Of a stretch of 62,684 nt of DNA, positions 11,368 to 42,032 are shown in pieces (position 1 is the stretch's first letter; each line of letters opens with the position of its first letter). Location of the stretch: positions 1-62,684 of IMG/VR virus record IMGVR_UViG_3300010883_000026; one strand, given 5' to 3'. Both the position numbers and the translations under genes were made by a program. Source of the stretch: a virus. A model generated the notes under the pieces. That model worked only from the letters and a program-made list of their open reading frames with translations, searched no databases and was not told the origin of the DNA.

Positions 11368-11380
11368 CTGTCCCCTAGGA

Positions 11381-11719: not shown

Positions 11720-11729
11720 AAGTCAGTCC

Positions 11730-12266: not shown

Positions 12267-12271
12267 GGCGG

Positions 12272-13005: not shown

Positions 13006-13028
13006 AATAATCCTTGGTTACAGGTAAA

Positions 13029-13069: not shown

Positions 13070-13085
13070 CTTTTCAAGAACCAGA

Positions 13086-14276
13086 TCAGAACTGAGCCAC
13101 CTGTGGGAACGTCTGGCCTTCCTCAACAAGATTGTTGAGCCTGCCAAGCTGATCCTCGGCCAACGGCAAGAACGCAGTACGAGCAGCAGCGTTGGTAGCG
13201 CCTACAGTCGTCTCCACCGAGCCCGCATAAAGCTCAAGCTTACGGCAAGAAGCGACGTTACCAATGTACATGCCGATATCTTCCCAAGCCTCAAACGAAA
13301 TACGATTGCGCTCCTTATCTGCATAAAACTTAGTCTTATTCAGAATGAGGAACCCACCCATGTACTCAGGTGAGGTGAAGGCATAGATATTACCAGGACG
13401 CAGGAGATCAGTCTTCAAGGTACGGATGAACTTACGGCCAATGACCGTAGAGTACTTGTACCCATCAACAGAAGTCTCACCAACGATCTTGTCGCCCATC
13501 TCGGTGATCGCCCAAGAGTTGATGTCCTCAAAATCCGTGTCGGTAATGAGAAACTGATTACAACGCAAACGCGAACCGCGATTCCCTGTACCTGTGAAAA
13601 GTTGAAACAACTTAATCAGGTCGTCCTTCTGGACGGGGAAAGAGAGAGTATCATTGGTTCCACCGTCAATAGCAGCAATATCGTGCCCGCCAATGACGTC
13701 GATACCCTTAACCTTACCAACTTCAGCCAAACCTGCAGCGACGTTCAACGCAGTAAATGCGGCAGCGGTGGGGTACGCGGCACCAAAGGCCAAGCCTTGG
13801 GCATCCTGCTGAAGGGACTGACAGGCAGACTCAATGTGGTTGAGGAAGACACTGTCTTCAACTTCCTGGATATCGTTGACGATATTCCGCTTGATGATCT
13901 GCGTGATGGGCAACGAGTACGCCATCAACTCCTGCTCAGTCTGCTCATAGCGCTCCGAACCAACAGTGTGGAAAGGAACTTCGAACCGAGGTGAGGTGTA
14001 GTAGCGCACGTTCGGCTGTCCTCGGAAGGACATCGACATGGACCGACTCTCAGGCTCAGTCTCAACGATCTTGACCAGGGTGTCATGACTGACGCTAACC
14101 TGGAGATCGGCACGGGTTACAGTTTTGGGAGGAAGAACTTTGCGTGCAAAGCTCTCCTCTCGGAGACGGTCGCGGATGTAGTCACTGCCCAGGGCAGCGA
14201 TTTTCTCTTTTCCGGCCTCTGTATCGAGCTTAGAAAGAAAAAGCTCGTTGAGGACTTCGCTAGGTACATTCGACAT
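13086..14276 (-). CDS. Major capsid protein, HK97-fold type
   Basis: This is a 396-residue protein directly downstream of the protease, scaffold and decoration genes, with a strong terminator after it. The N-terminal helical arm (to about residue 60) contains EKIA at 24-27, a possible processing site. The middle and C-terminal parts show capsid-like patterns: QIIKRNIVNDIQEVEDSVFLNHI, RSRLRCNQFLITDTDFEDI-type strands, and a P/A-domain-like end around YMGGFLILNKTKFYADKERNRISFEAWEDIGM. Length, order and abundance signals agree. Assignment by similarity search was not possible here. Confidence 0.75.
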   Translation of the reverse strand: MSNVPSEVLNELFLSKLDTEAGKEKIAALGSDYIRDRLREESFARKVLPPKTVTRADLQVSVSHDTLVKIVETEPESRSMSMSFRGQPNVRYYTSPRFEVPFHTVGSERYEQTEQELMAYSLPITQIIKRNIVNDIQEVEDSVFLNHIESACQSLQQDAQGLAFGAAYPTAAAFTALNVAAGLAEVGKVKGIDVIGGHDIAAIDGGTNDTLSFPVQKDDLIKLFQLFTGTGNRGSRLRCNQFLITDTDFEDINSWAITEMGDKIVGETSVDGYKYSTVIGRKFIRTLKTDLLRPGNIYAFTSPEYMGGFLILNKTKFYADKERNRISFEAWEDIGMYIGNVASCRKLELYAGSVETTVGATNAAARTAFLPLAEDQLGRLNNLVEEGQTFPQVAQF

Positions 14277-14292
14277 TACTTAGTCCTCCTTA

Positions 14293-14895: not shown

Positions 14896-14919
14896 TTTTT
14901 AGTCCTCCAAAAAAACGTG

Positions 14920-15859: not shown

Positions 15860-15934
15860 AAACTCTCCTGGGGCTTACGAGGTTGGTTAGAACACCGCCT
15901 CGCCCGCGCTCCTCTCAGCATTATATTACCAACT

Positions 15935-15976
15935 AATGATACAAACAAAGCTACTAATAACTAAGTTTGTATCATT
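15935..15976 (-). terminator. Perfect 12-bp inverted repeat
   Basis: AATGATACAAAC at 15935-15946 is exactly mirrored at 15965-15976, with an 18-base loop, 12 bases after the stop of the scaffold candidate. The stem is AT-rich and the minus-strand tail is AGTTGGTAATATAAT, without a T-run. It may be a weak terminator, a 3' stability element or a protein-binding operator. Confidence 0.5.
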
Positions 15977-15987
15977 GGCCGATCTTT

Positions 15988-16527: not shown

Positions 16528-16615
16528 TCTTATACCCTCCACGGTATAGTTTTAGAAAAAAAGTGTCTAACAGGGCACAGTCTTCGGTTGGCCTTTTGCC
16601 ACCTAGCACCCAAAA

Positions 16616-18256
16616 CTAAAATCCCCTCAACATTGTACTTACGTGCTTATCTATCTGACCGGATCTAAATAGATTCGTGCCCAGCCTAGTAAGTCCCAAA
16701 AATACAGATGAGGCGATTATGGGGTGTTGCTCAATAAACCTATCGAGAGGTCCTGTTGATTTACCGCCACCCATTTGCTTTCGCCTAACATGGGCACCGT
16801 AAAGATACGTGAGGGGCATAATACCTAACAAACCCAAAGGCAGCTTTGAGGCCGTCTTATCTAGGAGTGTCTTACCCATCAACATATCTTCAAATCCAGA
16901 CTCACTAAGGTTAGCGAGCAACCTAAAATCCTTACTTGTTATATTATCAACTACTGAATCTATGTTTTCAAGTAGTTGTTGCCGATACCCATTGTACCCG
17001 TCCGCTATCTTATTTAGAAGCGGTGATTCACTAGTAGTTAAACTTTCTGGTGCCGTCAATGGGTTTTTACGAATTGTAACTACAATTCGCTTTGTCAACA
17101 TAGGCTCAAACATACTCCTACGCCCAAGCATTGGCGCTATCAGATCTCTTATTTTACCAACGTGATCAAGGGGGTTCCCGAGAGAAACACTACGGTCCAT
17201 ACCAGAAGTGGGGGAGAATACTGTACCCGCTCTATCTAGTCTATCGGCCAAGGGTCTCTTGCCCATACGTATTAATATTACGCGTTGATACTCTTTGGGC
17301 TTCAGCACTATGCCTGAAGACGCTGTACTCGTTAAGATCTTTTTAAGGGGGTGCTCTGCTAAAGAGTCGAGCATTGGTCTAGGGAGCGACGGCTCACCAG
17401 AGAAGGCCTTCGGCATAATCTTGGCCGACATCGAGGGCACGCGCTTTATAATAGTGGCGACTTTGCCCCTAGCGGCCACTTTTTCCCTAATCTCGTAAGA
17501 CTCCGCAAGCCTATAGTCCTCAGCTAGTTCTGCTGACGACTTCGCTGTAAACGCGTGGGCGACCTTGGCCATAGCGAAGCTGGTCCGATCAGCACCTATA
17601 ACGACAAAACTTAAATCAAAAAACTTAGGCTTAGGATTGTAGACAAAGACTTTCCTGCCATCTGGTAGGATCTTACCCATCATGGTCTTTGTATGGAGGC
17701 AGTAGTCTGCCCTAGTCTTAGACCTATGCCCGCATATGGAGCAGACATCGTACTTGACCTTACACCCCATACTCACTGCGGGGTGCCCACCTCTGTCTAA
17801 AGTATCTACTATGTCTAGGTGGCCTTCCGCTCTAGCCTTCTGCCTATCAATCTCTAGTATAAGCTCAACCCGGTGCATGATAGGATTGTAGCAAGCGCAA
17901 ATAATCTTTCCTAAGGAACGCTCCTTATCTTTATTCTTGTGGTGTCTGTAGATACCTGAAGAGACAAAAGTTTTGTATCCAGCTACATTTGAGATGTCAT
18001 CGCCCAAATTAGGATTTAACTCACTCTCCTCAAAGTAGTCCCCATTGATATTGCTGCCGTAGTACTCACCAGCCCCCAGGGCATTGACTAGGACGTAGAT
18101 TTTGCTAGCGCAGGGGGACAGCCCATCTATAAAAGATCGAATCCTTGGGAACAGATCGCCCGAGGCCACCTTTTCCATATTCCGCCCAGGTCTAATAGCC
18201 TGGACGAATATGTTCCCATGGTCGTCTTGTCCCGGAAATGTTAGAAGCTTGAACAC
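16616..18256 (-). CDS. Prohead maturation protease with zinc knuckle and long C-terminal extension
   Basis: This 546-residue protein has a GTG start. The first ~230 residues fit an assemblin-type serine protease: NINGDYFEESEL, then the His pair H105-H106 in GIYRHHKNKD, strands LGKIICACYN and RVELILEIDR, and S162 in PAVSMGCKV. C172, C175, C186 and H188 could form a zinc site just after the active serine. Residues about 240-546 are an extension rich in basic residues, with hydrophobic segments near the end, so the gene may encode protease plus a core or internal protein. It carries MEKVAS (28-33), EKVAARG and DKTASK. Its position before the scaffold and capsid genes supports the call. Confidence 0.6.
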   Translation of the reverse strand: MFKLLTFPGQDDHGNIFVQAIRPGRNMEKVASGDLFPRIRSFIDGLSPCASKIYVLVNALGAGEYYGSNINGDYFEESELNPNLGDDISNVAGYKTFVSSGIYRHHKNKDKERSLGKIICACYNPIMHRVELILEIDRQKARAEGHLDIVDTLDRGGHPAVSMGCKVKYDVCSICGHRSKTRADYCLHTKTMMGKILPDGRKVFVYNPKPKFFDLSFVVIGADRTSFAMAKVAHAFTAKSSAELAEDYRLAESYEIREKVAARGKVATIIKRVPSMSAKIMPKAFSGEPSLPRPMLDSLAEHPLKKILTSTASSGIVLKPKEYQRVILIRMGKRPLADRLDRAGTVFSPTSGMDRSVSLGNPLDHVGKIRDLIAPMLGRRSMFEPMLTKRIVVTIRKNPLTAPESLTTSESPLLNKIADGYNGYRQQLLENIDSVVDNITSKDFRLLANLSESGFEDMLMGKTLLDKTASKLPLGLLGIMPLTYLYGAHVRRKQMGGGKSTGPLDRFIEQHPIIASSVFLGLTRLGTNLFRSGQIDKHVSTMLRGF

Positions 18257-18273
18257 GCTAGGTACCTGCTAGT

Positions 18274-19080: not shown

Positions 19081-19085
19081 TACCT

Positions 19086-21555: not shown

Positions 21556-23193
21556 CTACTTGTCGCCCGTTGGGGTGAGAATATCTGGTCGAGGGTGCCT
21601 GATCATCGACGCTAAGAAACAATATAACATAGAGTGTATCGTATCGTCAGTAGTTCCCGGCGTTTTATTTACGATGGTCGTGCGCCTAGCTTCATTATAC
21701 TCGGAAAATACGGACAAAATGTCCTGAGCGAAGGGTACCTCAAAGCCCCTCCACTGTGGAAGTATGAATTCGTCCTTCCTGTTGATGGCGTTTATCAAGC
21801 TCATCAAACCCTCAGTGCGGTTGACCATCCATCTGTGCAGAGACCTATCAAAGTAGATTCTTTTGGTGTTCACATATTGGTACCGCGCTATGCGCTTAAT
21901 ACCAAATGTCCTAATCAGCTTGTCATTTCTGTCAAATCCGCCCCCATAGTCAACACCTATCATAGTAACCTTAAACTTATGGATGTAGTCACTAATAATT
22001 TGAACAGTTCTTTCAGGGGCAGAGTCCTCGCCCTCAAATCTCTTAAAGAAGAGAAATTGGAACTTACCGCCTAGATAGGCACCTATGGTCATCACTGTAT
22101 ACGAGTTCTCAGCAGTGCCCCAATCCACACCCATAAATATGGGGCCTCTGCCTATAAAGTTCTCAGCGTCCTTCATGGGAATGTTCCCGCACTGGGCCAT
22201 GAGGGTTTCTTGGGTTATGAGCTTTCTGCCTGAGTCGTAAGCCAACCCTAGGACTTCGTTGAAAAACTCAGCACGCCCGTAGACACGCTTTTTGTCTAAG
22301 ACGCTGGCCCAGTCAATCCAAGGAGTTATAACCTGAGGTATCCTGTACCCCTCAAAAGGCACATTAACTGGGGGGTTTTTTAGCCAGGAGGGGGACCGCA
22401 TAGAAGCCCACATAGCCTGCGGGTGCATCGCTTGTATGTCTTTTCCGCATTTAGAGCAGACAAGCCCCAAAGGCCCTATGTTCTTTTCCCCGATAACATT
22501 CCAATACCGGTAGTCCCCTCCACCACAACCATCACAGGGTATCACCCATTCATTTTTGGTTGAGAACGTATTCCAGTAGTAACTGATTGTGTTGTCTAGG
22601 CTCTTGGGGGTTCCCGAGTAAACTCTAAAATCATACGGTGAGTGCGATAGGGCCTCCTCTATAATTGGAATAACGTCTGTAAGAATGTCCTGTATCTCAT
22701 CAAGCAGAAGCATGTCCGCCGAGATACCACGCACACGGTCTGCGTGTAGGAATGCGTACCTAAAGGTTATGTCCGAGTCTGTCGAGAACCTCTTGTACAG
22801 GACATTATTCTTTATTCTCTCTTGTGCGCCCTTTGTATATATCTGCAATTTCTCAGAAAGGGCTATGGGTGTAGCAATCTTGTCTCTTGAAAAAGTCTCC
22901 GTCTGCTGCTGAGTAGGGCTTACGAATAGAACCCTGAAGTACTCCTGGAGCATTGTATACGTGAGGCACTTATTTCCAAGAGTAGTGCTCTTCTCTACCT
23001 GACGACCACATTGGAGTAGGATTCTTTTGGAAGGGGTGTCATACACAGGTACAAGGTACCTTCTGCCCTTAAAAGAAAAAGGGGCTAGTTGACCCTTCGT
23101 AGGCATGCACATAAAATTAGCAACAAATTCAGATGGAAACATCTGAACGCTGCCTTTGGCTGGCTTACCTTTGTTGGGTCCCTTTATGAGCAT
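21556..23193 (-). CDS. terL: Terminase large subunit, GpA-like
   Basis: This 545-residue DNA-packaging motor combines ATPase and nuclease. Walker A is GRQVEKST (63-70), Walker B is MLLLDE with D165 and E166, and the coupling motif is SGTPKS (193-198). A zinc ribbon (C220, C223, C246, C249) lies between the ATPase and nuclease, as in lambda-gpA-type terminases. The nuclease domain has D357 (GVDWGT), D415 (GVDYGGG) and a C-terminal DDTIHS acidic site. No small subunit was recognised nearby; the 264-residue product at 27.5 kb is one possible candidate. The start at 23193 lacks a clear ribosome site, and ATG 23142 is an alternative. Confidence 0.88.
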   Translation of the reverse strand: MLIKGPNKGKPAKGSVQMFPSEFVANFMCMPTKGQLAPFSFKGRRYLVPVYDTPSKRILLQCGRQVEKSTTLGNKCLTYTMLQEYFRVLFVSPTQQQTETFSRDKIATPIALSEKLQIYTKGAQERIKNNVLYKRFSTDSDITFRYAFLHADRVRGISADMLLLDEIQDILTDVIPIIEEALSHSPYDFRVYSGTPKSLDNTISYYWNTFSTKNEWVIPCDGCGGGDYRYWNVIGEKNIGPLGLVCSKCGKDIQAMHPQAMWASMRSPSWLKNPPVNVPFEGYRIPQVITPWIDWASVLDKKRVYGRAEFFNEVLGLAYDSGRKLITQETLMAQCGNIPMKDAENFIGRGPIFMGVDWGTAENSYTVMTIGAYLGGKFQFLFFKRFEGEDSAPERTVQIISDYIHKFKVTMIGVDYGGGFDRNDKLIRTFGIKRIARYQYVNTKRIYFDRSLHRWMVNRTEGLMSLINAINRKDEFILPQWRGFEVPFAQDILSVFSEYNEARRTTIVNKTPGTTDDTIHSMLYCFLASMIRHPRPDILTPTGDK

Positions 23194-23428: not shown

Positions 23429-23639
23429 CCGGGGAATTGAACTTACTACACTCCCCGTCACCTCTCCAAGCCCGACCGTTCTTATAGGAAAAGTGCGTGC
23501 AATCACTGCACTGCTGGGATCCCTGGGCCAGTCGGAGGTTCGGGAGCTTTGGCAACCTCAGCAGGTCCTTGAGGGCCTCCGCCTCCAAAGATTCTGTGGA
23601 AGAGCCCTTTGGGCTGAGGAGGTTCTTTTGGATAGACAT
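23388..23639 (-). CDS. Four-cysteine small domain protein overlapping the helicase end
   Basis: This 83-residue frame starts inside the SNF2-like helicase gene (137-base overlap, shifted by +1). The last 42 residues form a compact module (CSDCTHF, GECSKF, FVCDDYE) with four cysteines, a pattern seen in small HiPIP-like or zinc domains in phages. The start ATG 23639 has only a weak GGGAA upstream. It could therefore be made as a separate protein, or as an extension of the helicase by frameshifting. The domain pattern is seen; its expression mode is not. Confidence 0.5.
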   Translation of the reverse strand: MSIQKNLLSPKGSSTESLEAEALKDLLRLPKLPNLRLAQGSQQCSDCTHFSYKNGRAWRGDGECSKFNSPVKDDFVCDDYESV

Positions 23640-25293
23640 AGCGTGTTTTCCCAGTAGCGGTCCTATACTTCTTTATGTACTTGTGTGGCGACTTTATAGC
23701 ACCGTAGAACTGTTTGCTAGTAGATCGCTTTTGCCCCGCCACACTATACATCCACTCGTCCGTAGTCTGCGGGGCCTTCTTGCCAAAGGCCCTACCAATA
23801 AATGAGGGTTTGGCCGATTCTGGGACAGTGCTCTGATACCTTCTTACATCGACCTTGCGCTCTTCAGGAATTCTTGCGGCCTGTCCCCCTAATCTTCTGA
23901 CTCTGCCCTCTGCTTGAAGAATCCTCTCAGGATTAAAATGCCCATCCAGAGCATAGAAAGCTGTGGCATCTTTGAGGTCGAGTCCTTCTGCCCCCGCACC
24001 GCTAAGGACAATAACTCTCTTCTTGCCCTGCTTAAAGGACTTCACACCAGTCTGCCTAATTTCAGAAGTAACCTTTGACCCCGCTATTTCAGTACCCTTG
24101 CCAATAAATAGGGCGTGGTCAATACCCATGGATTTAAGTCCTGCTGATAAGACATCAACGCCGCCATTGATGAGATTAGAGTACAGCACTACTTTGTTGT
24201 CTGGTCTGCTCTCCAAATGACGCGCTGTGTCATTTAGCAGTTTCTTTACCTTAGGTGTCGCTACAGCGGACTGCTCCACAGTTACATCTTTTCTTCCTGT
24301 GTGCAGGGAGTTCGAGAGTTTTCTAGCTTGACTCATCTGCACAAATAGCTGGTTGGCGTCCTTTACCGTTATGTTCTGGTCTTTCTTTGTGATGTACGTT
24401 TTAAGAGGGCCGAGCCGGTCAAGAGCGTACTGGTAAAGTTTATACTGCTCATCCGACATGGGGACCTTAACGTTCTTAAGCTCCTTCCTCGGCATACTCT
24501 TGCCCTTTAAGTCATCGGTAGTAACAAAGTGAACTCGGGGAGTTACTGTCTTTACGAAGGCTGTTGGGTTTCTCAAGCCAACAACTTTTCTATCCTTTCC
24601 TCCGAAACTTTTAGTATGTCCCACTGTCTGTGTGAAAGCCTTCTTAAACTGGTTTGGGGACATTCCCCTATGGGATTCCGATATAGTCAGGAGGGACGCA
24701 ATCTCAGAGGGATGATTGTTAATCAATGAGGCCGTTAAGCCCATAAAGTTTCGTGCGTAGGGCCTAGCGGCTACAGCAGCCTTAAATACCTGGGAGCCCT
24801 CATTTCGTATCTTATGGTACTCATCAAAAATGAGTGTGTCCGCCCCCGTCCTCTTCATAAACCCAGCGGGGTCCCTCCTAAACATTGCATAGGAGACTAT
24901 TGTGTAGTCTTTGTTCGGACCCACAGCATTAGGCCGAACGTAATTCTTTTTGGCCTTTTCGCTAGATGAGGCAACAACCTGATAAGAGCTATTGGTAAAC
25001 TTGGCTACACCGTTCTCTGCAAAATTGTTTCTCAACCCGGAGGGTACGACTACTAAGGCCTTTCCAGCTTTTCCTATGTGCTTTAGTTTCTCAAAACCAT
25101 AAATGCTGGTTACTGTCTTTCCGGTGCCCATCTGGTGGGCTAAAATCATCTTGCCGTTATTGTCTAATAGCTTCTGTACCGCGTCCTCTTGGTGGTCATA
25201 AGGTTTAAACCAAGCCTTCAAAGAAGGTATACCTGTTCCGTGACCTCCTTCGCCTTCCGCAGCATATTTTATTACGTAGTTATATAGACTCAT
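23503..25293 (-). CDS. SNF2-like superfamily 2 helicase in the virion block
   Basis: This is a 596-residue DNA-dependent ATPase. It has HQEDAVQ (Q-motif-like), Walker A HQMGTGKT (K59, T60), motif II DEYH (157-160), motif III LTAS, motif V GAEGLDL and motif VI QAEGRVRRLG, an SNF2/SF2 pattern with both RecA-like lobes. The C-terminus carries a basic motif at about 538-557 (KKYRTATGKTRYVYP) that is also present at the N-terminus of the next-upstream gene product, then a Gly/Pro-rich tail. Late-block location next to terminase and internal proteins suggests it acts in packaging, or is carried in the virion to act on host DNA or proteins. Replication use is less likely because another SF2 helicase lies in the early block. 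Confidence 0.75.
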   Translation of the reverse strand: MSLYNYVIKYAAEGEGGHGTGIPSLKAWFKPYDHQEDAVQKLLDNNGKMILAHQMGTGKTVTSIYGFEKLKHIGKAGKALVVVPSGLRNNFAENGVAKFTNSSYQVVASSSEKAKKNYVRPNAVGPNKDYTIVSYAMFRRDPAGFMKRTGADTLIFDEYHKIRNEGSQVFKAAVAARPYARNFMGLTASLINNHPSEIASLLTISESHRGMSPNQFKKAFTQTVGHTKSFGGKDRKVVGLRNPTAFVKTVTPRVHFVTTDDLKGKSMPRKELKNVKVPMSDEQYKLYQYALDRLGPLKTYITKKDQNITVKDANQLFVQMSQARKLSNSLHTGRKDVTVEQSAVATPKVKKLLNDTARHLESRPDNKVVLYSNLINGGVDVLSAGLKSMGIDHALFIGKGTEIAGSKVTSEIRQTGVKSFKQGKKRVIVLSGAGAEGLDLKDATAFYALDGHFNPERILQAEGRVRRLGGQAARIPEERKVDVRRYQSTVPESAKPSFIGRAFGKKAPQTTDEWMYSVAGQKRSTSKQFYGAIKSPHKYIKKYRTATGKTRYVYPKEPPQPKGLFHRIFGGGGPQGPAEVAKAPEPPTGPGIPAVQ

Positions 25294-30251: not shown

Positions 30252-31607
30252 CTATTCGCTCGCTTTCACTTTTGATTTACTAGTGGTTATGCCAATTAGG
30301 CTGGGTGAGGGGTCAATCGCCCCCGTCAGGGGGTTCACTATATGCGTATGTGCGGCAAGAGCACTCAGTAGCCCCATGTCAATGACTACGGGGTAATCTC
30401 CCGGACCGCTCCCCCCCAATTTACCTTCCTCGGTAACCTCACCTTCGGCATCTACTACCCCAAGAGCTACACCACCTGTAATGGGCGCAGCCATTACTAG
30501 ATTACTAGTCGCAAGAGTAATAATGGGGGCTGTAAGCTTAATTTCTACTATAGCTTCTAAAACCACACTTTTCACCATAGCTTTAAACTCATCTGACTTG
30601 AGTAGCTCTACTGTGCTACCTAAGTCACCAAAATCTATCTTAACCCCATTATTAACTTTTGCATATACTGTATCCGCCACCTCGACGTGCACCGACGCCT
30701 CGGACCGTATGAAATTGTTGCCGCTAGTGTCTACCTGGAACGTGTACGTAACCTTTTCCTGCCCTTCTTCATGGGAGTAAATAGTAATGCTAATTGCCCC
30801 CGTACTGTCTACGGGTATTCCAGTAAAGGGCGTAAGAGCATCTGAAAATATTGTGGGCGGGTCTTCTTGCCTTGTTGCACTGTTGGCGAACAAGTGCTCT
30901 GAGTCTTTATCAGAGTCTAATACTTCATTGGACAGGGTTCCTGCCCGTACCTCGACTGTAAACTTGCCTCCGGTGACGTCTTCTTGGGCCTTGGCCTTGA
31001 TATTGTACTTGACCAGCACAGGAGTATTCCTTGCGCTGGACATGTCATCCTCATCTGAAAGGGTGGCGTGTCCCCACTCTATCTCACCCAGGGGGGAGAA
31101 CGCTTGGTATCTTTGGAAGAAGTCCCTGACTGTATTCTCTATGGGGATGTACACTCTCTGAGCAAGGGCCGTAGACCCTATTTGGAGTACGCCCCCTCTT
31201 CTTAGGATGATGAAATTGTCATCTGTGGCGCTGAGCATTACGTCCCCAGGCTCAAGTGGGTGTCGGAATCCAGAAAAGTCTGGCCCGCCATCAGAAGATA
31301 CAGAGACAATGTTGCCCTCTTCGTCTCTTACTTCTTTCGGGATATTCCTTGGATTTTGTATCCACCCGAGCACAAAAGCAGTTTCATCGGCAGGTATGCA
31401 CACGTAACAGTCACTGCCCGTCTCGGGCATAAAGTTAATCCCACCACCATGGTTGCCGTGGGTATAGGGCACCTGCCAAGGAATATCTACCAAGGGTCTG
31501 TTGGTGAAATTAGTTATAACATCGACGGTGTATTCCCTAAAATTAACTCCCGTCACCTTGGCTAGTTCGACCTTGGCGAAGCCGTCTGTCTGTACTGTAA
31601 CTCCCAT
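30252..31607 (-). CDS. Baseplate central spike / gp5-like OB-fold protein
   Basis: The 451-residue product opens with an OB-fold of the gpV/gp5/VgrG type: VTGVNFREYTVDVITNF, the IPWQVPYTHGNHGGGINFMPETGSDCYVCIP pattern read in two blocks, then TAFVLGWIQNP. The middle is beta-sandwich-like (residues ~190-330), and the C-terminus contains a probable beta-helical stretch (APIITLATSNLVMAAP) and an AAHTHI motif typical of spike ends. It would form the membrane-piercing tip of the contractile tail. Its start ATG shares one base with the polymerase stop codon (TAATG), so both are translated from one mRNA. Confidence 0.7.
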   Translation of the reverse strand: MGVTVQTDGFAKVELAKVTGVNFREYTVDVITNFTNRPLVDIPWQVPYTHGNHGGGINFMPETGSDCYVCIPADETAFVLGWIQNPRNIPKEVRDEEGNIVSVSSDGGPDFSGFRHPLEPGDVMLSATDDNFIILRRGGVLQIGSTALAQRVYIPIENTVRDFFQRYQAFSPLGEIEWGHATLSDEDDMSSARNTPVLVKYNIKAKAQEDVTGGKFTVEVRAGTLSNEVLDSDKDSEHLFANSATRQEDPPTIFSDALTPFTGIPVDSTGAISITIYSHEEGQEKVTYTFQVDTSGNNFIRSEASVHVEVADTVYAKVNNGVKIDFGDLGSTVELLKSDEFKAMVKSVVLEAIVEIKLTAPIITLATSNLVMAAPITGGVALGVVDAEGEVTEEGKLGGSGPGDYPVVIDMGLLSALAAHTHIVNPLTGAIDPSPSLIGITTSKSKVKASE

Positions 31608-34600
31608 TAGTACGGACCCTCCTTACCCTTACCGAACTCGGCAGAATATAGAATACCGGGAGCAGGGTGCAGTCCGTGAATATCAGACTCCCACCCCTCA
31701 TTGGCCGCTCGAATAAAGGTCTCTTTCAGTTTTCTATACTGCAGCCTAGCCACCCAGTCAGTGGATTGATCTAGGGGCAGTGTCTCTATACCACGCAGAA
31801 TTGGAAAAACAGAAATGGGGTTCTTATACTTATTCTTTTTATTAAGCGATGATACATACGAGAGTGACGCGTAGTCCCCTCTTATGAATTCGTCTGAATC
31901 TCCAGGGTCTTCTATTTTACCAAGGTTGGTGACCGACTTAACCAACACCTCGATATTCTTCTTCTTTATCCCTTGACCCCCGTATATCGTGTGTAGCTCA
32001 TCCGTCATATACCTTTGAACTGTGCCGATATTGGTTAGCTCCAAAAGCCTCCTTGGGTCAATGGAGCCGTCTGTGATGCTCTGCCCCTTCTTGACTATGT
32101 CCCCCGCCTTTACTTTTAACTTTCTAGAGCTTGGGACATATAGGTCTGCACCGCCGATTTTAACATCGAACCCCCCAACAGGGCTTTTCTTCACACTAGT
32201 TACTGTGGCCGCAATAGGTGACAACGTAGCTGAGTTGGGCAAAATCTTAGGAATCTTGAGCAACTGTATTACCCTATCGATGCCCGCAACAAGGGAAGAC
32301 CCCCCTTCGACCACACCCCCAGTATGGAATGTCCTCATAGATAGCTGTGTGGCCCGCTCGCTTATACCCGTCCCCGCGAGAACCCCAATGTTAGTTCCCT
32401 TACTGATAGGTAGACCGTCGTCCATAACCCCGTAACATTTTGAGCACATCCCTTTGCCCATTTCACACTTCAATGGGGATCTGACCAGGATTCTAGAAAT
32501 TTTATTAGCCTTCATCTTGGAAAAAAGATTAGGGGTAACCAGGGTGCCGCCTGGAATTGTAGAGTTACCCAATTTAATCGGCTTTAGTGTGAATCGGTCC
32601 ACTGCGTCAGCGTCATCTATATCCAGGGCAATCCCTTTCGTCGTTCCACAATCATCATCAGAGATCACATAGGAGACCGCCGTATTTACTATCTGCTTGT
32701 TCAGAGCACCGGGCACCTGCACAGCTAAAACTTTCTCAACAAGGCCTTTTCTGGCACCGGAGGCTGCGACCCAATACCCCGCAGTATCTAGTCCTTCCGA
32801 GTAGGATCTAGTAACGGGAACGGGGATCGTCCGCCCCTTGGCATTTTGTAGGAGCATTGGGGCTATAACCATCTGCTGTACTTGGGACCAAGAGGGCTTA
32901 ACCCCCGCTTTATTCATAGCGTATATTTTATTACCCTTCTTATCTAAGAGTTTCTTTGCGGCTGCGTTAATATCCGCTGTGGCTTTCGTGTAGAGCTTAA
33001 CTATCTCACTTTCTTTCTGGGAACTGGAGAGGGCCTTATTCGCTATAATCGTGGCTTCCTTCTTTTTTGCTACTACTAGGTACTTGTCTCGAAGATCTCT
33101 TAATGAATCAAAGTCCTTAAGAGTAAATGAGAATCCTATACTATGCGCGTACCCAAACCCGAGATCTTTAATACTGTCAATTGTTTTAGCGAACTCCGCT
33201 GGAGTCTTCCCAGCTAGTTCTTTGAGAACCCCCTGAAGATTTTTAGACCCCATGACCAAATTTTTATCTGTAAGATACTCGTCCTTCTGGAGTTTCTTGG
33301 GCAGCAGCCTATTAAGGGACAACCTACCTGCGGTAGTGTTCATCCCTCCTACTTTGATCTGGTCGGTCATGGAGATGTCCCCAGACTTTGCTGCCTTGAT
33401 CGCTTCCGCCGAAGATCCAAACGACTTGTTTGTCTTCTTCCCAAACTGGGTAAGGAGGAACAGGCCTAGCTGCCCCTCAAGGGTAGGTTGGTACATAACC
33501 TTACCCGTTGAAGGGTTGTACAGATTTTTGGAGGGCATCATCTTGTAGGCTTCGTCCACGGCCTCTTTGGAAATAGGGACGAAGACACCCATCGTATCCC
33601 CGTCAAAGTCAGCGTTGAAGCCTCCCGTGACCAGGGGATGTATACGAATAGCGCTCTCATTGTGCAGCCTTGGTTTAAAGGCCAAAATTCCAAATTTGTG
33701 CAAAACGGGATCGCGTTTAAATAGAACAGGCCTTCTAGAGACTGCTACATCTAGAGCTTTATTAGCCAGTGATGTGTCTTTTTCTACTTCGTCTCTAGCC
33801 GATAAAGGGGTATACCCCATCTTCACAAGCTCTTTGACAACAAAAGGCCTATAGATCTTCATAGCCCCTTTTCTGGGGAGGCCTATCTCATCTAAATTTA
33901 GCTGCATGTCCGGAACGATAACAGACCTCATTGTGAGGTCTTGTTTCCTATCCAGGATTTTCTTATGGAAGAAGCTTTCTTTGGGAGACCGCCTTCCGGA
34001 CATTATTGTCAATATCCCCGGTGGCCTCATTTGGCCGTCCAGGGTCACCTCAGATTGTTGGGATGTTGAGGCTGTACCCATCAGGGCGTCTGTGGCGTTA
34101 TAAACTTCCGCTCTTAGTACGTTGATACTACTCTCAGGAAGAACACCCTCCGCGTCACCAATCTTGCTGTTGAGTATGGCTATGTCCCGGTAAAGAACAT
34201 TCAAGCCATCAATGTTCAGGTCTCCTCCCTCCATTGCAGTAATAGGTCTAAAAATCGGAGGGAGCACCGGCAAGTTACTTAGGGTGTAAGCCTCTTTAGC
34301 GGAGAACCCTGTCTTTTTAAGCATCAAAAGATACTTTATCCGCTTGTTGACTTTGTCCAGTTGTGACCTACGGGCTGTTTTTATCTGTTCCTTCGCCTCT
34401 GCTAAATCCTTATCAGGGTTAACCTTACTAAGCTGGTCCACGATAGCTATTGGGCCAGAGCGTTTTGCCTCTTCGGCAGGTACAACATTACCTTCTTCGT
34501 CAAATCCAGAATTGCCAGCTATTATCGAATCATACTCCTTGAGGGTTAACCCCAACAAAGAGACAATGCCTTTCTCAAACATGGGGTTAGGCATCGCGGA

Positions 34601-37600
34601 TGATAGCTTTATGTGCCCCCAGTTTTTGCCCCCAGGGCCTCCAGTAACCTCTTCATCAAAAAGACCACCCTTCTCCGGTTTTAGGTCTTTCCCCCGAATA
34701 ACTTTACTCCCATCTTTTATCTCACCCGCTGAGATAGCAAGGACCTGCTTATCGGTAAGGGGGGTTAGGATGAGGCCATTGCCCTCCTTCTCTACATTGA
34801 GACCCAGGGCTTTCAAGTAGGATAGGAACTTCTCATACGCAAATGAGGGCTTAGGCGCAGGTAGCACGGATCCCGTTTGGATCGCTGTCCAAATTTCATC
34901 CTGTGTCTTGTCGCTTTTGTAGGTTAGGGCGTCTCTGATATTTGCAGTGGCTCCATGAGAAAGCATGGCGTACAGACCAAGTTCCCCAAACCGCTGTGCG
35001 CTATACTTCCCGCCACCCTTGGGAACTAGAGTCGCATCATAATTGTGCCCATACCCATGACTTCGTGCAGTAAGTTTTTTGTCGATCTGATGTACAAGCT
35101 TTAAAAAATACTGACTCCCCATCAAAACCTTGCCGTAACTCTTACCGGTCTGGGGGTCGATTAAATCTTCAGTCTCCTCAATACCTGCCTCTTTAAGGGT
35201 CTCCTTGACCATCTCTTGGTAGCCCCTTTCTCGCTGGTAGGGCTGGATGTACACCTTTTTGGGGCCCTCTTTGGTCTTTACCGTTTTGTAATGACCCTTC
35301 ACTTTGATTATCTTTTTTTCATCCTGCGACTGAAAATTATCTACGGCGTAGGGAACACCATCCTTCAGGGCAACTTTGGACAAGCTAGTCTCCAACACTT
35401 GCCCCAAATTGATTCTCCCAGGTACCCCAGAGGGGCTTAGTATAACCTGCACTACCTTGCCGTCTTTTGTTTTGGGCATCTCCTCGTCAGGCACGACAGC
35501 AGTTATTACGCCTTTATTGCCGTGTCTCCCTGTTAACTTATCTCCTATATCGGCGGGCTCTTCAGTCTTGACGTAGACCATGATCTCCCGACCATTTCTA
35601 ATAACGTCGGTGACTACTCCACTATAAGGTTTGTCCCAAGTAAGTGACTTGTTCTTAAAAGGGCGGACCAGGGATTTATGTATCCCTTTAAGGAGAAGCT
35701 GCTCCTTGGAAGGGTCGGTTTTTTGCATAGCCGTGACAAGGTGATCCCCTGGCCCAACCTGTTGCCCCTTTTTGATAACACCGTCTTCATCTAACTTAGC
35801 GGCGTTATCTTCTGATACTGTTCCAGGGAAATTAGCTCTGAACTTACTGAGCCCTATTCCCATATTTCGTTCTATGTAAGCCCTGTTCTTATGGAGGTGC
35901 TCGCTGGTTAACTTCTTTGAGGCGCTCTCGCTGATTACGACGCCGTCCTCAAAGACTAGGCCCTTAAAAGGAAGGTAAGCCACGGCTAGGTTAGTGCCTA
36001 TTGAGAGTACGCCGTCCTTTGTAAAATTTGTATCTGCAACGACTTGGCCCTTCTGAACCTTATCCCCTTTTTTCACCAAAGAGGTGCTGTGCATGAAGGC
36101 CTTTTTATCATTTAGGGGGTAATTATTGTAAAGCTGAACTTCGTGCTTTTCCCCCTTGCTGGTCTTTATCGTTATTTTGTCACCAGAGACGCTTACAACA
36201 GTTCCGGACTCTTTTGTCTTGTGGGAGTTAAAGCCGCCTAAAATCTTCTCCCAGGTGTTTACGTCTTCCCCACGACTTCCTGAGGCTGTTTGTACTAACG
36301 GCTGTTCCCTGTTCTTTAAGGAGATTGCTTGCTCCATATGCCGGGTGGCCATGCCTGCTCGATTAGCCTGATCGGACGGCAAAAAGGGAATCATATTGGC
36401 GGTCATAGAGAACATCTGCTTAGTCGAAGGTAAGATGTAATCAACCTTATCCGGACTTACAACAGTCGGGTCTTCACCACCACTAGGTATAACTGTTATC
36501 TGGCCTGTCTTAGGTCTTGGCTCTTTTCCTTTTTCAAAAATGAATTGATCCGAGAACGCAAGGCTTCCCTCTTTTAGAGTTACTGGCGTTGCCTGCTCAA
36601 ATTTCTTTTTCTTCGTATTGTAGACTCGAATGGCGGGACTCTTCCCCTCCTTACTAACACCTAAAGTAAGGTGCGTGGACACTCCTGACCTAGAGCCCTC
36701 AGGGGTATGGATCGGGTCTATGAACCCAAGGTGGCTGGCATCAATCATCTTGGCGTCGTCAGTGATCGCATTATCGCTTGCTATACCACCTGTGCCGGTG
36801 AGAGTTACTCTTAAAAAGCCCCCCACCATGTCTACGGGGTTTACTTGGCTACTCTGCTGAGAGAGCGATGTCGAGGTGAAGAACGCCTTTACAGGTACAT
36901 TAAAAATGTCCGTTGTTACGATAGAACGAACTTCCTCTCTCCTATCTAAATTATTCTTCATCTTGTAAAGAATACGCCGCGAGGAGTTCTGTATCCTTTC
37001 AGGAATATGGTCCTGCACAGACCACAACTCTTTGAACTCAAGAGCATCCCGGTTGTCTACCTTGCTCGTACCTCTACTAACGCCTAATAATTTACCCGAA
37101 GCGGCTAATAAGACAGGGCCTCCGACCTCAGTATAGGGCTTCCCAAGGGTTGTTTTAGTGGTTTCTCCGCTTAGTTCTGTTTTGGCCAGAGCTTCTTTTA
37201 TTACAGGCAACGCCTCTATATCTGTTTTTCCTGTGAATCTCCGGTCAAGGGCTTTGGCCATCTTGACAAGATTGCCCTTCTTCTTTGTGCCGACGTTCTC
37301 AGCGTAAAGAGGCCTACCCCAACTTTTCTCTATAGCCTCATCAGCTATCCCTAGAGCCTGTAAAACAGGCAATAGCTGTACATGGGAAGACCCGTACCCT
37401 AGGAGAAACCTTCGCTTCTCTGGGTCAAAGGACATCTTGAAGCCACGACCCTTCGCAAGGTTGAACTGCGTTTCAAGCTCGCCATTAGCCTTTCTTCTCG
37501 TATAGGCCCCGGCCTTTAGACGCCACTGGTTGTCCGCTTGGTACTCTGTACCAGCTACAATAAAGCTATAACGTCTAGTTAGTTTGGGCAGGCTGACCAA

Positions 37601-37867
37601 TTTTAGCTTGGACGCCTTACTTACGATTTTACCCGTTTCATTGTCAATGAGGTCGAAGTCCCCGTAAATACCAGTAGACCAAGTTCTACCACGCATTCGG
37701 GCCTTGCGTTGACTGGCGATATCGTCCACGTCAACGTCCTTCCCTGCATATACTTTTTTGGCTATGAGCGTGTGCTTTCTCCCCGTGAGAGGGAAGAACT
37801 TCTTGATCTCATCTACAGTCCCATCTTCGAGGGCTGCCATGGCCCTCTCAGGATCTAGAATCGACAT
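31607..37867 (-). CDS. rpoBC: Single-chain DNA-dependent RNA polymerase, beta-beta' fusion (2086 aa)
   Basis: Beta homology begins near residue 95 (RRYSFIVAGTEYQADNQW). It continues through the rifampicin-pocket region (336-362), PIHTPEGSRSG, VDYILPSTKQMFSM, LPFKGLVFEDGVVISE, GRHGNKGV (780-787), GVPGRINLGQVLET and AQRFGELGLYA, and ends near 1025 (LGLNVEK). Beta' resumes at GHIKL (1084) and includes PVLPPIFRPI, RRPVLFKRDPVLHKFGI, the catalytic NADFDGD with D1420, D1422 and D1424, a zinc site at C1740, C1801, C1808 and C1811, and trigger-loop residues MRTFH (1844-1848). The N-terminal beta' zinc domain is absent. ATG 37867 follows AGGAGATAGGAA. No alpha, omega or sigma gene was recognised. The gene is embedded among virion genes, so the enzyme may be packaged and injected. 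Confidence 0.95.
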   Translation of the reverse strand: MSILDPERAMAALEDGTVDEIKKFFPLTGRKHTLIAKKVYAGKDVDVDDIASQRKARMRGRTWSTGIYGDFDLIDNETGKIVSKASKLKLVSLPKLTRRYSFIVAGTEYQADNQWRLKAGAYTRRKANGELETQFNLAKGRGFKMSFDPEKRRFLLGYGSSHVQLLPVLQALGIADEAIEKSWGRPLYAENVGTKKKGNLVKMAKALDRRFTGKTDIEALPVIKEALAKTELSGETTKTTLGKPYTEVGGPVLLAASGKLLGVSRGTSKVDNRDALEFKELWSVQDHIPERIQNSSRRILYKMKNNLDRREEVRSIVTTDIFNVPVKAFFTSTSLSQQSSQVNPVDMVGGFLRVTLTGTGGIASDNAITDDAKMIDASHLGFIDPIHTPEGSRSGVSTHLTLGVSKEGKSPAIRVYNTKKKKFEQATPVTLKEGSLAFSDQFIFEKGKEPRPKTGQITVIPSGGEDPTVVSPDKVDYILPSTKQMFSMTANMIPFLPSDQANRAGMATRHMEQAISLKNREQPLVQTASGSRGEDVNTWEKILGGFNSHKTKESGTVVSVSGDKITIKTSKGEKHEVQLYNNYPLNDKKAFMHSTSLVKKGDKVQKGQVVADTNFTKDGVLSIGTNLAVAYLPFKGLVFEDGVVISESASKKLTSEHLHKNRAYIERNMGIGLSKFRANFPGTVSEDNAAKLDEDGVIKKGQQVGPGDHLVTAMQKTDPSKEQLLLKGIHKSLVRPFKNKSLTWDKPYSGVVTDVIRNGREIMVYVKTEEPADIGDKLTGRHGNKGVITAVVPDEEMPKTKDGKVVQVILSPSGVPGRINLGQVLETSLSKVALKDGVPYAVDNFQSQDEKKIIKVKGHYKTVKTKEGPKKVYIQPYQRERGYQEMVKETLKEAGIEETEDLIDPQTGKSYGKVLMGSQYFLKLVHQIDKKLTARSHGYGHNYDATLVPKGGGKYSAQRFGELGLYAMLSHGATANIRDALTYKSDKTQDEIWTAIQTGSVLPAPKPSFAYEKFLSYLKALGLNVEKEGNGLILTPLTDKQVLAISAGEIKDGSKVIRGKDLKPEKGGLFDEEVTGGPGGKNWGHIKLSSAMPNPMFEKGIVSLLGLTLKEYDSIIAGNSGFDEEGNVVPAEEAKRSGPIAIVDQLSKVNPDKDLAEAKEQIKTARRSQLDKVNKRIKYLLMLKKTGFSAKEAYTLSNLPVLPPIFRPITAMEGGDLNIDGLNVLYRDIAILNSKIGDAEGVLPESSINVLRAEVYNATDALMGTASTSQQSEVTLDGQMRPPGILTIMSGRRSPKESFFHKKILDRKQDLTMRSVIVPDMQLNLDEIGLPRKGAMKIYRPFVVKELVKMGYTPLSARDEVEKDTSLANKALDVAVSRRPVLFKRDPVLHKFGILAFKPRLHNESAIRIHPLVTGGFNADFDGDTMGVFVPISKEAVDEAYKMMPSKNLYNPSTGKVMYQPTLEGQLGLFLLTQFGKKTNKSFGSSAEAIKAAKSGDISMTDQIKVGGMNTTAGRLSLNRLLPKKLQKDEYLTDKNLVMGSKNLQGVLKELAGKTPAEFAKTIDSIKDLGFGYAHSIGFSFTLKDFDSLRDLRDKYLVVAKKKEATIIANKALSSSQKESEIVKLYTKATADINAAAKKLLDKKGNKIYAMNKAGVKPSWSQVQQMVIAPMLLQNAKGRTIPVPVTRSYSEGLDTAGYWVAASGARKGLVEKVLAVQVPGALNKQIVNTAVSYVISDDDCGTTKGIALDIDDADAVDRFTLKPIKLGNSTIPGGTLVTPNLFSKMKANKISRILVRSPLKCEMGKGMCSKCYGVMDDGLPISKGTNIGVLAGTGISERATQLSMRTFHTGGVVEGGSSLVAGIDRVIQLLKIPKILPNSATLSPIAATVTSVKKSPVGGFDVKIGGADLYVPSSRKLKVKAGDIVKKGQSITDGSIDPRRLLELTNIGTVQRYMTDELHTIYGGQGIKKKNIEVLVKSVTNLGKIEDPGDSDEFIRGDYASLSYVSSLNKKNKYKNPISVFPILRGIETLPLDQSTDWVARLQYRKLKETFIRAANEGWESDIHGLHPAPGILYSAEFGKGKEGPY

Positions 37868-37902
37868 TTCCTATCTCCTAAAGCAGTGTACGACACCAAC
37901 CC

Positions 37903-37916
37903 TTTTTGGGTATAAG
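37903..37916 (+). promoter_or_regulatory. Promoter-like element TTTTTGGGTATAAG (copy 1)
   Basis: This is the first of four plus-strand copies of a shared element. The downstream bases AGAGTAATGGAGGACCAAGAC match copy 4 closely. A 6-bp stem (37923-37928 with 37943-37948) and a CCCCCTTGGGGG palindrome (37960-37971) follow. It lies upstream of the plus-strand zinc-ribbon gene at 38066 and diverges from the polymerase gene. Confidence 0.6.
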
Positions 37917-38065
37917 AGTAATGGAGGACCAAGACTACGTACTCCTCCGTAACCACATGCCCCCTTGGGGGTAACAAAAGAGGTTCCTATGCGATATTTT
38001 TTCCAGTCCTCATGTTCGGATCTAGACACAGACATCGACGACGCGTTAGACCCAGACTCGGACAA

Positions 38066-38320
38066 ATGAAATGTAAACTGAAGGATGGATGGTGCGCTGA
38101 ACCTACTCAGTGCAGGCAGTGTCCCTACTTCAGTGGGAAGGCGGGAAGGGTTGTGTGGATGTGCATTATATGCCTTCATAACAATTCGTCCCTGCCTTTT
38201 TACCACAAAGGTACGTGTAGTCGGTGTGGAAAAGTAAGGTTGATTCTCATACCCGTACCTATATCTGCGCTGAGTCAGGAGCCGCCCGAGGAGGAAGCTT
38301 CTCAGGAAGAGGCTTCATAG
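38066..38320 (+). CDS. Small double zinc-ribbon protein between polymerase and portal genes
   Basis: This 84-residue plus-strand product is encoded in a gap of the leftward late block. It contains eight cysteines in pairs (C3/C10, C16/C19, C34/C37, C51/C54), enough for two zinc sites, and an acidic tail (EPPEEEASQEEAS). The last 62 bases are antisense to the 3' end of the portal gene. Copy 1 of the early promoter-like element lies 150 bases upstream. An earlier in-frame ATG exists at 38012, but the cysteine-bearing part starts at 38066; neither has a strong ribosome site. It may be a transcription factor or polymerase regulator, judged only from its location and zinc ribbons. Confidence 0.5.
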   Translation: MKCKLKDGWCAEPTQCRQCPYFSGKAGRVVWMCIICLHNNSSLPFYHKGTCSRCGKVRLILIPVPISALSQEPPEEEASQEEAS

Positions 38321-40256
38321 GCTTCATCCCGGACCCGCTTAAGTAATTATTTACCAGCATGTACAGGTCAGGGTTACTGGACCGTAGCTGAGCCATAGCC
38401 CTGTACCTGTCAACCTCATTCATAGCTTTTACCTGACTGCCCAATTTTTTAGCTTGCGCGAACAAGTCCACCATGGACCCACCAGCCTGTGCGACCTGTT
38501 GATCCATAGGACTCTGCTCAACTCCCTGAACGGCTCCCTGCTGTGCCTGTTGTGGGGGCGCTTGCTGCTCCGCACCGGGCTGTTGCCCTGGTGGGGGAGC
38601 GCCTTGTTCTGGAGGTGGTCCCTGCTGTTGTTGTGCCTGCTGTTGTTGTGCCTGCTCTGCTCCCTGCTGTTGTGGCTGTTGCCCTGGTGGGGGCGCTTGC
38701 TGCTGCATTTGGGCCTGAGCTTCCTGCTGCATTTGTTGAGACTGGATCTGATATCTAGTCTGGGTGAGCATGGCCTCGCCCTGAGCTTCTGCCTGCTTGC
38801 CCATCTGTGTTCGTGAGTCCCTGGCGAAATCAATACTTTCCTTCTCAATAAGTTTCTGCTCAGTGTCGTAGTTATAATCACGAGACTGCAAGAAAGTGCG
38901 CCTGCTGATCATCTTGGCGTTGGTGAGGTTCATGTCGAATGAGGCCCTCTGGATATCATCTGCCATTTTAAATGGCTTAAACTTCAGTGCGATTTTGGGA
39001 ATGTCCAAGAAGGCTGTGACCCTGTCTCGTATGAAGGTAACGAGACGCATCATGTCTTGCCTATTACCCAAAAATTCATTTTCAAGTGCACGTAGGTTTA
39101 CAGAAGCACCGGAGTACTGGGCCTCCCCGTAGAAGAACCCAGTGGGAACGCCCATTCCGGCAATTATCTGATCGTTGTAAACCCGAGTTTCCTGATGAAG
39201 GAGAAGACCCTTCCCCTGACCCCCTATTAGCTGGTACCCCACGGGAACAGGCATAACGGGTATATGGTTATTATCCATTTTCCACTTCTTAATTTGCTCT
39301 TGGACCTCCTTCTGCCAGTCTTTCAAGTTTACATGGGCGTAGGGGTTGTTACCGTCAGCAGTTACTTGGGGGAACATGACCCGCATTGGGACAATGTGTT
39401 CCAAGGCCACTGCCTCTTGAGCTTTACGAAGAATCTGTAGGAAATAGATGTCTTTCAAGACGGGTAAGATTAACGGAGACCCCCAGCCACTATCCGTGGG
39501 CTCTCTAGAAATCGAAGGTCTTCGCGCATGAAAAAGTTTGCTGGGGTCCAGCATGATAACTTTATTTTTCGCTAAAGCGTCTATGAACGCCTGCGGTATC
39601 GTCTCTATAACACTGGGCTTCCCTATGGTGATCTGGTTCTTCAGATGAACCGGCATCGTATAGTAGTACTGATACTCGCCAGTGATCTCTGTGTAATTAA
39701 TAGTAATATTGTTTGGGTTCCACCGAAGTAGGCGTATTTTCTTATAAGACTTGACTGGCTCGTCCTTGGCTTTGGCTGGCCCATTATGGCCGCAGGACTT
39801 ACACGTTATGTGAAATTTAAAGCCTTTCCATTTGTACCCAATCTTCTTGGCCACGTAGTCTTGGCTGCACGAACTACAGGTAAGCTTCTTAACGAACGGG
39901 AAGGCAATAGAGACAAAAGAGTTCCCGTAAGTATACCTATCTAAATTAGTCTCAATCAGAAAAGTTCTGAGCCTGAACTGGTCTTCAAAGATAGACTTGT
40001 AAAGCTCCTGCACTCCAGGGTTGTCCTCGGAGTAGACCAGATCAGTAATAGGGTACGTGGCTAGTTTGTAAGTAATCGCGCTTATAAGGGGATTCGTCTG
40101 CTGATAATACAGACACCACTTAAAGGTCTCCTTTACGGTCTTAGGTAGATAATTTTGAGCTATGTCAAAAAATGGGCTGGGGTAGAAAGTCTCCGGCCTA
40201 CCTACATTTTTAGCAGCCGTCAATCTATTACTGCCTGATAGGCCATGTGCTGGCAT
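38259..40256 (-). CDS. Portal protein with inserted zinc ribbon and Gln/Pro-rich tail
   Basis: This 665-residue protein forms the DNA gateway at the capsid vertex. Portal-like features are TNPLISAITYKLATYPITDLVY, the LFHARRPSISRE strand, the TGFFYGEAQYSGASVNLRALENEF segment, and the helical IRDRVTAFLDIPKIALKFKPF. A zinc ribbon (C127, C130, C152, C155) is inserted in the wing region. Residues ~505-590 are a low-complexity Gln/Pro/Gly run (QQQAPPPGQQP-type repeats), followed by a helical end. It lies upstream of the polymerase gene in the late unit, and its 3' end overlaps an antisense small gene. Confidence 0.75.
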   Translation of the reverse strand: MPAHGLSGSNRLTAAKNVGRPETFYPSPFFDIAQNYLPKTVKETFKWCLYYQQTNPLISAITYKLATYPITDLVYSEDNPGVQELYKSIFEDQFRLRTFLIETNLDRYTYGNSFVSIAFPFVKKLTCSSCSQDYVAKKIGYKWKGFKFHITCKSCGHNGPAKAKDEPVKSYKKIRLLRWNPNNITINYTEITGEYQYYYTMPVHLKNQITIGKPSVIETIPQAFIDALAKNKVIMLDPSKLFHARRPSISREPTDSGWGSPLILPVLKDIYFLQILRKAQEAVALEHIVPMRVMFPQVTADGNNPYAHVNLKDWQKEVQEQIKKWKMDNNHIPVMPVPVGYQLIGGQGKGLLLHQETRVYNDQIIAGMGVPTGFFYGEAQYSGASVNLRALENEFLGNRQDMMRLVTFIRDRVTAFLDIPKIALKFKPFKMADDIQRASFDMNLTNAKMISRRTFLQSRDYNYDTEQKLIEKESIDFARDSRTQMGKQAEAQGEAMLTQTRYQIQSQQMQQEAQAQMQQQAPPPGQQPQQQGAEQAQQQQAQQQQGPPPEQGAPPPGQQPGAEQQAPPQQAQQGAVQGVEQSPMDQQVAQAGGSMVDLFAQAKKLGSQVKAMNEVDRYRAMAQLRSSNPDLYMLVNNYLSGSGMKPMKPLPEKLPPRAAPDSAQI

Positions 40257-41975: not shown

Positions 41976-41988
41976 TTTTTGGTATAAG
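41976..41988 (+). promoter_or_regulatory. Promoter-like element TTTTTGGTATAAG (copy 2), main early operon
   Basis: This copy lies in the only divergent spacer between the two blocks, 45 bases before the first early gene. The following bases CAAGTTGTAGCAACCCTA nearly match those after copy 3. CAAG and CTTG arms can pair across the leader. It is likely the promoter of the replication operon. No typical -35 hexamer was seen. Confidence 0.65.
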
Positions 41989-42032
41989 CAAGTTGTAGCA
42001 ACCCTACCTTAACCTTGGAGAGGTACCACATC

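Follow-up and report, generated by a model that had tools for sequence, protein, structure and literature searches.

In bacteria, RNA polymerase (RNAP) is built from alpha2, beta, beta', omega and sigma. Among phages, single-chain RNAPs occur in the crAss-like group and in P23-45, far more diverged than the chain that is the subject of this report, a fused beta-beta' RNAP encoded in the IMG/VR virus record IMGVR_UViG_3300010883_000026; the record is a contig of 62,684 bases, itself a fragment, and we refer to this whole stretch as the window. The crAss-like phi14:2 gp66 resembles the window chain in being a single chain with both catalytic barrels, and in two papers it is summarised as packaged in the virion and injected, with early transcription that is rifampicin-resistant (PMC10136315, PMC10770324). 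The phiKZ-type RNAPs are phage enzymes of the multisubunit type that lack alpha and omega and come in virion and non-virion forms (PMC7598289), and in Helicobacter and Wolbachia a fused rpoBC gene places beta and beta' in one chain (NCBIfam NF007172, NF011417). The mReC contigs of Weinheimer and Aylward (2020) are tailed-phage contigs, largely from IMG/VR, whose beta and beta' are alignable with cellular ones and whose RNAPs, like that of the window, are deep-branching and distinct from those of cells (PMC7481178). We consider it likely that the window gene encodes a virion-carried, host-independent, bacterial-type single-chain RNAP core, in which the fusion is ancestral and relatives resembling Salmonella phage Arash later split the chain inside beta'.

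The gene lies on the minus strand at 31607-37867 as an uninterrupted open reading frame (ORF) of 2086 codons, with no internal stop and no N bases, which bears out the single frame proposed in an original prediction made from the letters alone; the RNAP frame contains one stop, as against 51-178 in each of the other five frames. It starts with an ATG preceded by a good ribosome site, AGGAGATAGGAAATG, and ends in TAATG at 31607, where one base is common to the next gene. The gene and its principal parts are as follows.

31607..37867, minus strand: fused beta-beta' RNA polymerase gene, 2086 aa (ORF, Pfam and structure-sequence matches)
34781..37867, minus strand: beta-like half, residues 1-1029 (Pfam Rpb2_3/_6/_7; AlphaFold2 pLDDT 85; TM 0.70 to Thermus beta)
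31610..34780, minus strand: beta'-like half, residues 1030-2086 (Pfam Rpb1_1-_5; AlphaFold2 pLDDT 86; TM 0.85 to B. subtilis beta')
35507..35530, minus strand: GRHGNKGV, residues 780-787 (K777 and K785 in 66/66 aligned rows)
33596..33616, minus strand: NADFDGD catalytic loop, residues 1418-1424 (D1420/D1422/D1424 in 64/64 aligned rows)
32324..32338, minus strand: trigger-loop motif MRTFH, residues 1844-1848 (H1848 in 57/57 aligned rows)
32435..32650, minus strand: second beta' zinc site, C1740, C1801, C1808 and C1811 (alignment; the sole cysteines of the chain)

The Pfam search for Rpb1 and Rpb2 domains, proposed earlier as a check, matched both sets in the right order along the chain, Rpb2_3, Rpb2_6 (6.6e-56) and Rpb2_7 followed by Rpb1_1 to Rpb1_5, and phmmer against solved structures matched bacterial beta' subunits at 1e-113. 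GRHGNKGV, NADFDGD and MRTFH stand at exactly the residues claimed for them (780, 1418 and 1844). Both barrels of a two-barrel (multisubunit-type) RNAP are present in the chain, including the DxDxD loop and the lysines on the beta side. The flap, the clamp helices, the bridge helix and the trigger loop can all be aligned, and the models, in which the halves were folded separately and not as one complex, contain these elements in a predicted crab-claw fold. The cysteines of the second beta' zinc site are nearly invariant among aligned relatives, and the N-terminal zinc finger of beta' is absent, as judged by alignment with ten bacterial beta+beta' pairs.

The fused arrangement recurs widely. When viral contigs were scanned with the window protein, 30 loci matched at 41-67% identity (best segment), the majority at full length, and a scan with the family alignment covered the best 80 of 485 matches. 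Beta and beta' lie in one frame at 115 IMG/VR loci, 73 after removal of chains more than 95% identical and 60 at 75%. A frame break between the beta and beta' parts, named in the original prediction as a finding that would count against it, is contradicted by these 73 non-redundant, equally fused relatives. The same prediction had called the fused form unusual; it is no lone oddity and belongs to a large conserved clade with cultured, split relatives. Some fused chains contain LAGLIDADG endonuclease insertions whose borders look intein-like and which lie within or beside conserved motifs. In L027 (IMGVR_UViG_3300037483_000453), the ORF at 10001-19750 encodes an RNAP of 3249 aa in which three probable inteins adjoin the HTPEG, NADFDGD and MRTFH-equivalent motifs; one such intein is present in each of L021, L107 and L130.

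Cultured relatives with a split RNAP are Salmonella phage Arash and Vibrio phages D69 and D181; Arash gp206 and gp216 and the proteins of D69, D181 and D148 belong to the same family, with 30-31% identity over residues 12-1507. In this clade the RNAP comes in two pieces (profile 1-1475 and 1478-2052) or three (1-1097, 1097-1475 and 1478-2052), and beta remains joined to the start of beta', with no break at the cellular beta/beta' boundary. The Arash-type chain breaks off after about residue 1507 in window-protein numbering, and the two pieces may be as much as several kb apart; this break is near the cyanobacterial rpoC1/rpoC2 boundary, for which the models end at about 1506 and start at about 1555 in the window protein. 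The Arash paper labels gp206 and gp216 beta and beta', although gp206 is in fact beta plus the N-terminal half of beta' (PMC10585845). The D181 chain is also broken at about residue 500, so that its locus (L033, 11959-19941) holds three RNAP pieces, the first two of which flank a homing endonuclease gene; D69 (L035) lacks this first break. In L324 the chain is broken near the end of beta. No exact relative of the Yersinia phage GN1 RNAP was confirmed in IMG/VR; D69 was the sole one of these queries to find one.

An alternative origin is a host rpoBC operon captured recently, or a chimeric assembly, in favour of which the residues and folds are clearly bacterial-like. The trees, for which no root was inferred and which hold bacteria but neither archaea nor eukaryotes, make such an origin so improbable that we give it almost no weight. 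With the halves concatenated, 24 bacteria from many phyla separate from all phage rows of the fused-RNAP family on a branch with support of 100, and a 21-row tree under a site-heterogeneous model sets all sampled bacterial phyla together opposite the phage clade at 100/100. Beta-only and beta'-only trees give a matching picture, and since they agree the chain is not a chimera; the recurrence of the fusion in the 73 non-redundant chains argues the same way. Placement within a host genus, which had been named as grounds for doubt, is contradicted by the trees of both halves: whether these are taken together or apart, the window RNAP falls outside all 24 sampled bacteria and inside no bacterial phylum, unlike a bacterial rpoBC fusion. 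On these comparisons the window RNAP is deeply separated from sampled bacterial RNAPs and is not a recent host capture. Phage-encoded, fused and well conserved in its bacterial motifs, the enzyme is on all three counts what had been predicted. As separate observations, uninterrupted bacterial frames span beta and beta' in L145 (3704-12349, a Bryobacterales MAG; 2881 aa) and L176 (3-4898), possibly further rpoBC fusions outside Helicobacter and Wolbachia, and several records listed as phages of Staphylococcus, Enterococcus, Listeria, Salmonella and Acinetobacter contain rpoB/rpoC stretches that resemble host DNA.

Within the phage family the split rows form one clade (100/99), nested such that L322 and others branch outside it; in 0% of bootstrap trees do all fused rows lie on one side of a branch. 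Because the splits never fall at the cellular beta/beta' boundary and the split clade is nested, fusion would have come before fission, and the simplest account of these sequences is that fusion is ancestral in the family and was followed by fission inside beta' in the Arash-like relatives. L322 (IMGVR_UViG_3300031722_000008, 5736-12722) encodes a 2328-aa fused chain with 29% identity to bacterial and 29% to phage RNAPs; it is the deepest branch of the phage clade and a key sequence for rooting.

Alignment with ten bacterial pairs places the passage from beta to beta' at about residue 1029, with the C-terminal tail of bacterial beta and the N-terminus of bacterial beta' trimmed and no linker in their place. 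AlphaFold2 models were made for residues 1-1120 (pLDDT 85, pTM 0.77) and 1020-2086 (pLDDT 86, pTM 0.74), each folded separately, and both contain strands at 1023-1028 and 1031-1036, a predicted hairpin that spans the junction. The structure prediction called for earlier, carried out on the two halves, gave bacterial beta-like and beta'-like folds; the nearest solved folds by Foldseek were Thermus beta (TM 0.70) for the beta half and B. subtilis beta' (TM 0.85) for the beta' half.

34760..34801, minus strand: beta/beta' junction, residues 1023-1036, predicted hairpin with turn G1029-N1030 (alignment with 10 bacterial pairs; strands in both models)
36785..36880, minus strand: rifampicin-pocket region, residues 330-361 (alignment; S340, G350, T355)

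Could the chain be a polyprotein, cut into beta and beta' to give a two-subunit working enzyme? Tailed phages often process the proteins that they package in the head, and a head maturation protease-like gene that might do the cutting is present in the window (16616-18256). The junction, however, is a linker-free predicted hairpin that offers no exposed loop, and the split relatives divide elsewhere, inside beta'; we regard cleavage as very unlikely. In the rifampicin-pocket region, S340, G350 and T355 align with E. coli D516, H526 and S531, which we take to be the positions classically mutated in rifampicin resistance, and these substitutions lead us to predict that the window RNAP is probably rifampicin-resistant.

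Each of 18 related records has exactly one Rpb2_6 locus (18/18); no alpha was detected in these 18 and no omega in 14 related records. A sigma like Arash gp10, a divergent protein with Sigma70_r3 and Sigma70_r2 matches (regions 3 and 2), is present in 13/18 records, including three isolate phages, and the records that lack it are fragments of less than 63 kb, the window among these, apart from G006. In G013 and G009, where sigma and RNAP are on one strand, the sigma gene lies about 40-60 kb upstream of RNAP, a place outside the window fragment. A search for T7-type RNAP gave no matches, though its positive control also gave none.

The case for packaging comes from the Arash virion proteome, in which gp206 gave 3516 spectra, the highest of all proteins and above the major capsid protein, with 1210 for gp216 (the rest of beta'), 467 for the sigma gp10 and 1148 for the helicase gp217 (PMC10585845). 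Per residue these are 2.3, 2.0, 2.0 and 2.4 for gp206, gp216, gp10 and gp217, respectively, only a rough measure but one compatible with RNAP pieces and sigma in equal amounts, as in a packaged holoenzyme. Because the Arash virion carries both RNAP pieces and the sigma, viruses of this family probably deliver a transcription apparatus of their own to the cell, by analogy with that phage. The fused RNAP could instead be a conventional non-virion polymerase made during infection, its presence in Arash particles being carry-over, a possibility raised by the Arash authors themselves (PMC10585845); a single RNAP per genome could also serve all gene classes. Carry-over accounts poorly for gp206 spectra above those of the major capsid protein, for sigma and helicase at similar spectra per residue, and for an RNAP gene that in every clade sits between the portal and further head/tail genes, and we judge this explanation unlikely.

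Several points nonetheless weigh against a virion-carried, host-independent enzyme of ancestral fusion. There is no sigma gene in the window, a fragment, and no sigma match in the 142,974-base relative G006; alpha, omega or sigma of the host could be used. The virion evidence comes from Arash, about 30% identical and with a split chain, whose authors allow for carry-over of abundant proteins (PMC10585845); for the fused members themselves, activity, virion presence and expression are predicted. The argument for ancestral fusion leans partly on L322, a long branch.

We still favor the virion-carried core, for which the sequence and phylogeny above are the firm ground. According to the models, the chain would fold as a crab-claw core without an alpha dimer; as in the relative Arash, the folded chain would go into the head together with a phage sigma and the SNF2-type helicase, and would pass into the cell with the DNA. 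Once ejected, it would be expected from its sequence to be active, to use phage promoters and to start phage transcription independently of host RNAP, probably in a rifampicin-resistant manner.

The surroundings of the gene are those of a tailed-phage structural region.

38259..40256, minus strand: portal protein homologue, next conserved gene upstream of RNAP (29% over 560 aa, 2e-91, to Arash gp204, annotated portal)
30252..31607, minus strand: 451-aa protein of no assigned family (1-base overlap with the RNAP stop; kept downstream in relatives)
23503..25293, minus strand: SNF2-type helicase, homologue of Arash virion helicase gp217 (profile and homology matches)
21556..23193, minus strand: terminase large subunit (phrog_675 2.7e-56; PF05876 1.6e-13)
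16616..18256, minus strand: head maturation protease-like protein (phrog_18299 2.9e-11)
13086..14276, minus strand: probable major capsid protein (phrog_2522 4e-4; 26%, 4e-26 to a Vibrio phage D69 protein)

Downstream of RNAP the same strand thus carries the SNF2-type helicase, the terminase, the head protease-like gene and the capsid candidate, and replication genes (helicases, primase, DNA polymerase, UvsX-like recombinase) are on the opposite strand. The 451-aa protein directly downstream is conserved in relatives. The original prediction had argued against a host contaminant from a one-base overlap with a spike gene; the overlap is real, but "spike" is unsupported, the 451-aa protein having no Pfam, PHROG or NCBIfam match, and stronger grounds against contamination are the portal homologue upstream, the neighbouring head/tail genes and the phylogeny. 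For a 111-aa frame between portal and RNAP (37871-38206), ten relatives gave no homologue at 1e-4. This frame may be spurious, although a gene of about 95 aa occupies the corresponding place in Arash and D69.

Two non-coding positions are retained from a word analysis of upstream regions.

41976..41989, minus strand: GCTTATACCAAAAA, head of the RNAP-containing gene array, candidate promoter/regulatory element (core CTTATACCAAAAA kept in relatives)
37904..37917, minus strand: TCTTATACCCAAAA, 49 nt upstream of the RNAP start, core CTTATACC (upstream-region count)

The first is almost unchanged across relatives with a readable region, and its core occurs in all of them, except in L030, whose extract has no full copy. 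The core CTTATACC occurs within 200 nt upstream of RNAP at 32/72 non-redundant loci, as against 0/72 on the opposite strand and 1/72 for the reversed word, and the copies have no consistent reading frame; the 72 loci are related to one another, and given this kinship the count is only suggestive of a regulatory element. A genome-wide promoter reading of TYCTTATACC (38 sites in ten records versus 12 reversed) was dropped, as opposite-strand coding motifs confound it: most sites fetched outside the heads of RNAP and late operons lie opposite what resemble conserved coding motifs, GYKN-EG and GYKKCEA, as seen in L418, L421, L426-L428, L430, L434 and L435, and in L417, L429, L432, L433 and L436. 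A bolder proposal, in which the holoenzyme would be reduced to two proteins (fused chain and gp10-like sigma, no alpha or omega), be virion-borne, use CTTATACC-type promoters, and be ancestral in an old lineage that later re-split it inside beta', is offered tentatively, and we lean slightly against it.

Compared with known systems, the window lineage is probably the mReC of 2020. A fused chain would pass the mReC filters (both COGs, at least 800 aa, NADxDGD), and that paper describes beta and beta' subunits and mentions fusion for crAssphage only (PMC7481178). The mReC capsid family PF07068 had no match in 16 records here, in a search in which no positive control matched either; the mReC paper reports the major capsid protein in just eight contigs (PMC7481178). 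The mReC terminase family PF03237 matched 10/16 records, mostly weakly and three above the cut-off; the window gave no match, and its terminase matches PF05876. Arash and the Vibrio D phages are like the window relatives in their portal immediately upstream, gp10-like sigma and related helicase. The phi14:2 gp66 is nearer QDE-1 in structure and too diverged for COG profiles (PMC7481178), whereas the window chain aligns with bacterial subunits nearly throughout. The fused rpoBC models NF007172 and NF011417 match the window protein (2e-156 and 2e-148) at scores far under their cut-offs (522 of 5372 bits, 496 of 4632), and the 2896-aa Helicobacter chain L137 groups with bacteria in trees, unlike the window chain. 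The phiKZ-type enzymes comprise four or five polypeptides, with beta and beta' each in at least two genes and two RNAPs per phage; the window family has one chain and one RNAP locus per record. The IMG/VR NADFDGD contig sample also holds many short phiKZ-like pieces and a second phage lineage with separate beta (about 1000 aa) and beta' (about 900 aa) genes, often beta' then beta, which falls outside the fused clade (L305, L312, L316, L351, L357, L368, L378, L379, L388, L400, L409).

A natural single chain alignable with bacterial subunits implies that an RNAP can probably do without alpha-dependent assembly and without the N-terminal zinc finger of beta', and provides one cloneable gene for a bacterial-like RNAP core. 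The series from fused to split forms places fusion earlier than fission among phage polymerases, genes annotated "beta" or "beta-prime" in such phages may not match cellular subunits, and with Arash and the Vibrio D phages in culture, early transcription independent of the host can be tested directly. We found no described fusion in this lineage in the papers searched; the text of one paper mentions fused-barrel cellular-type RNAP derivatives without detail, and an earlier notice in its supplement is possible (PMC10770324). Together, these comparisons separate what is already known, namely RNAP-encoding Caudovirales (mReC), crAss-like single-chain RNAPs and the bacterial rpoBC fusions of Helicobacter and Wolbachia, from what we did not find described in the literature we searched: a conserved, bacterial-like, single-chain phage core that precedes the split forms.

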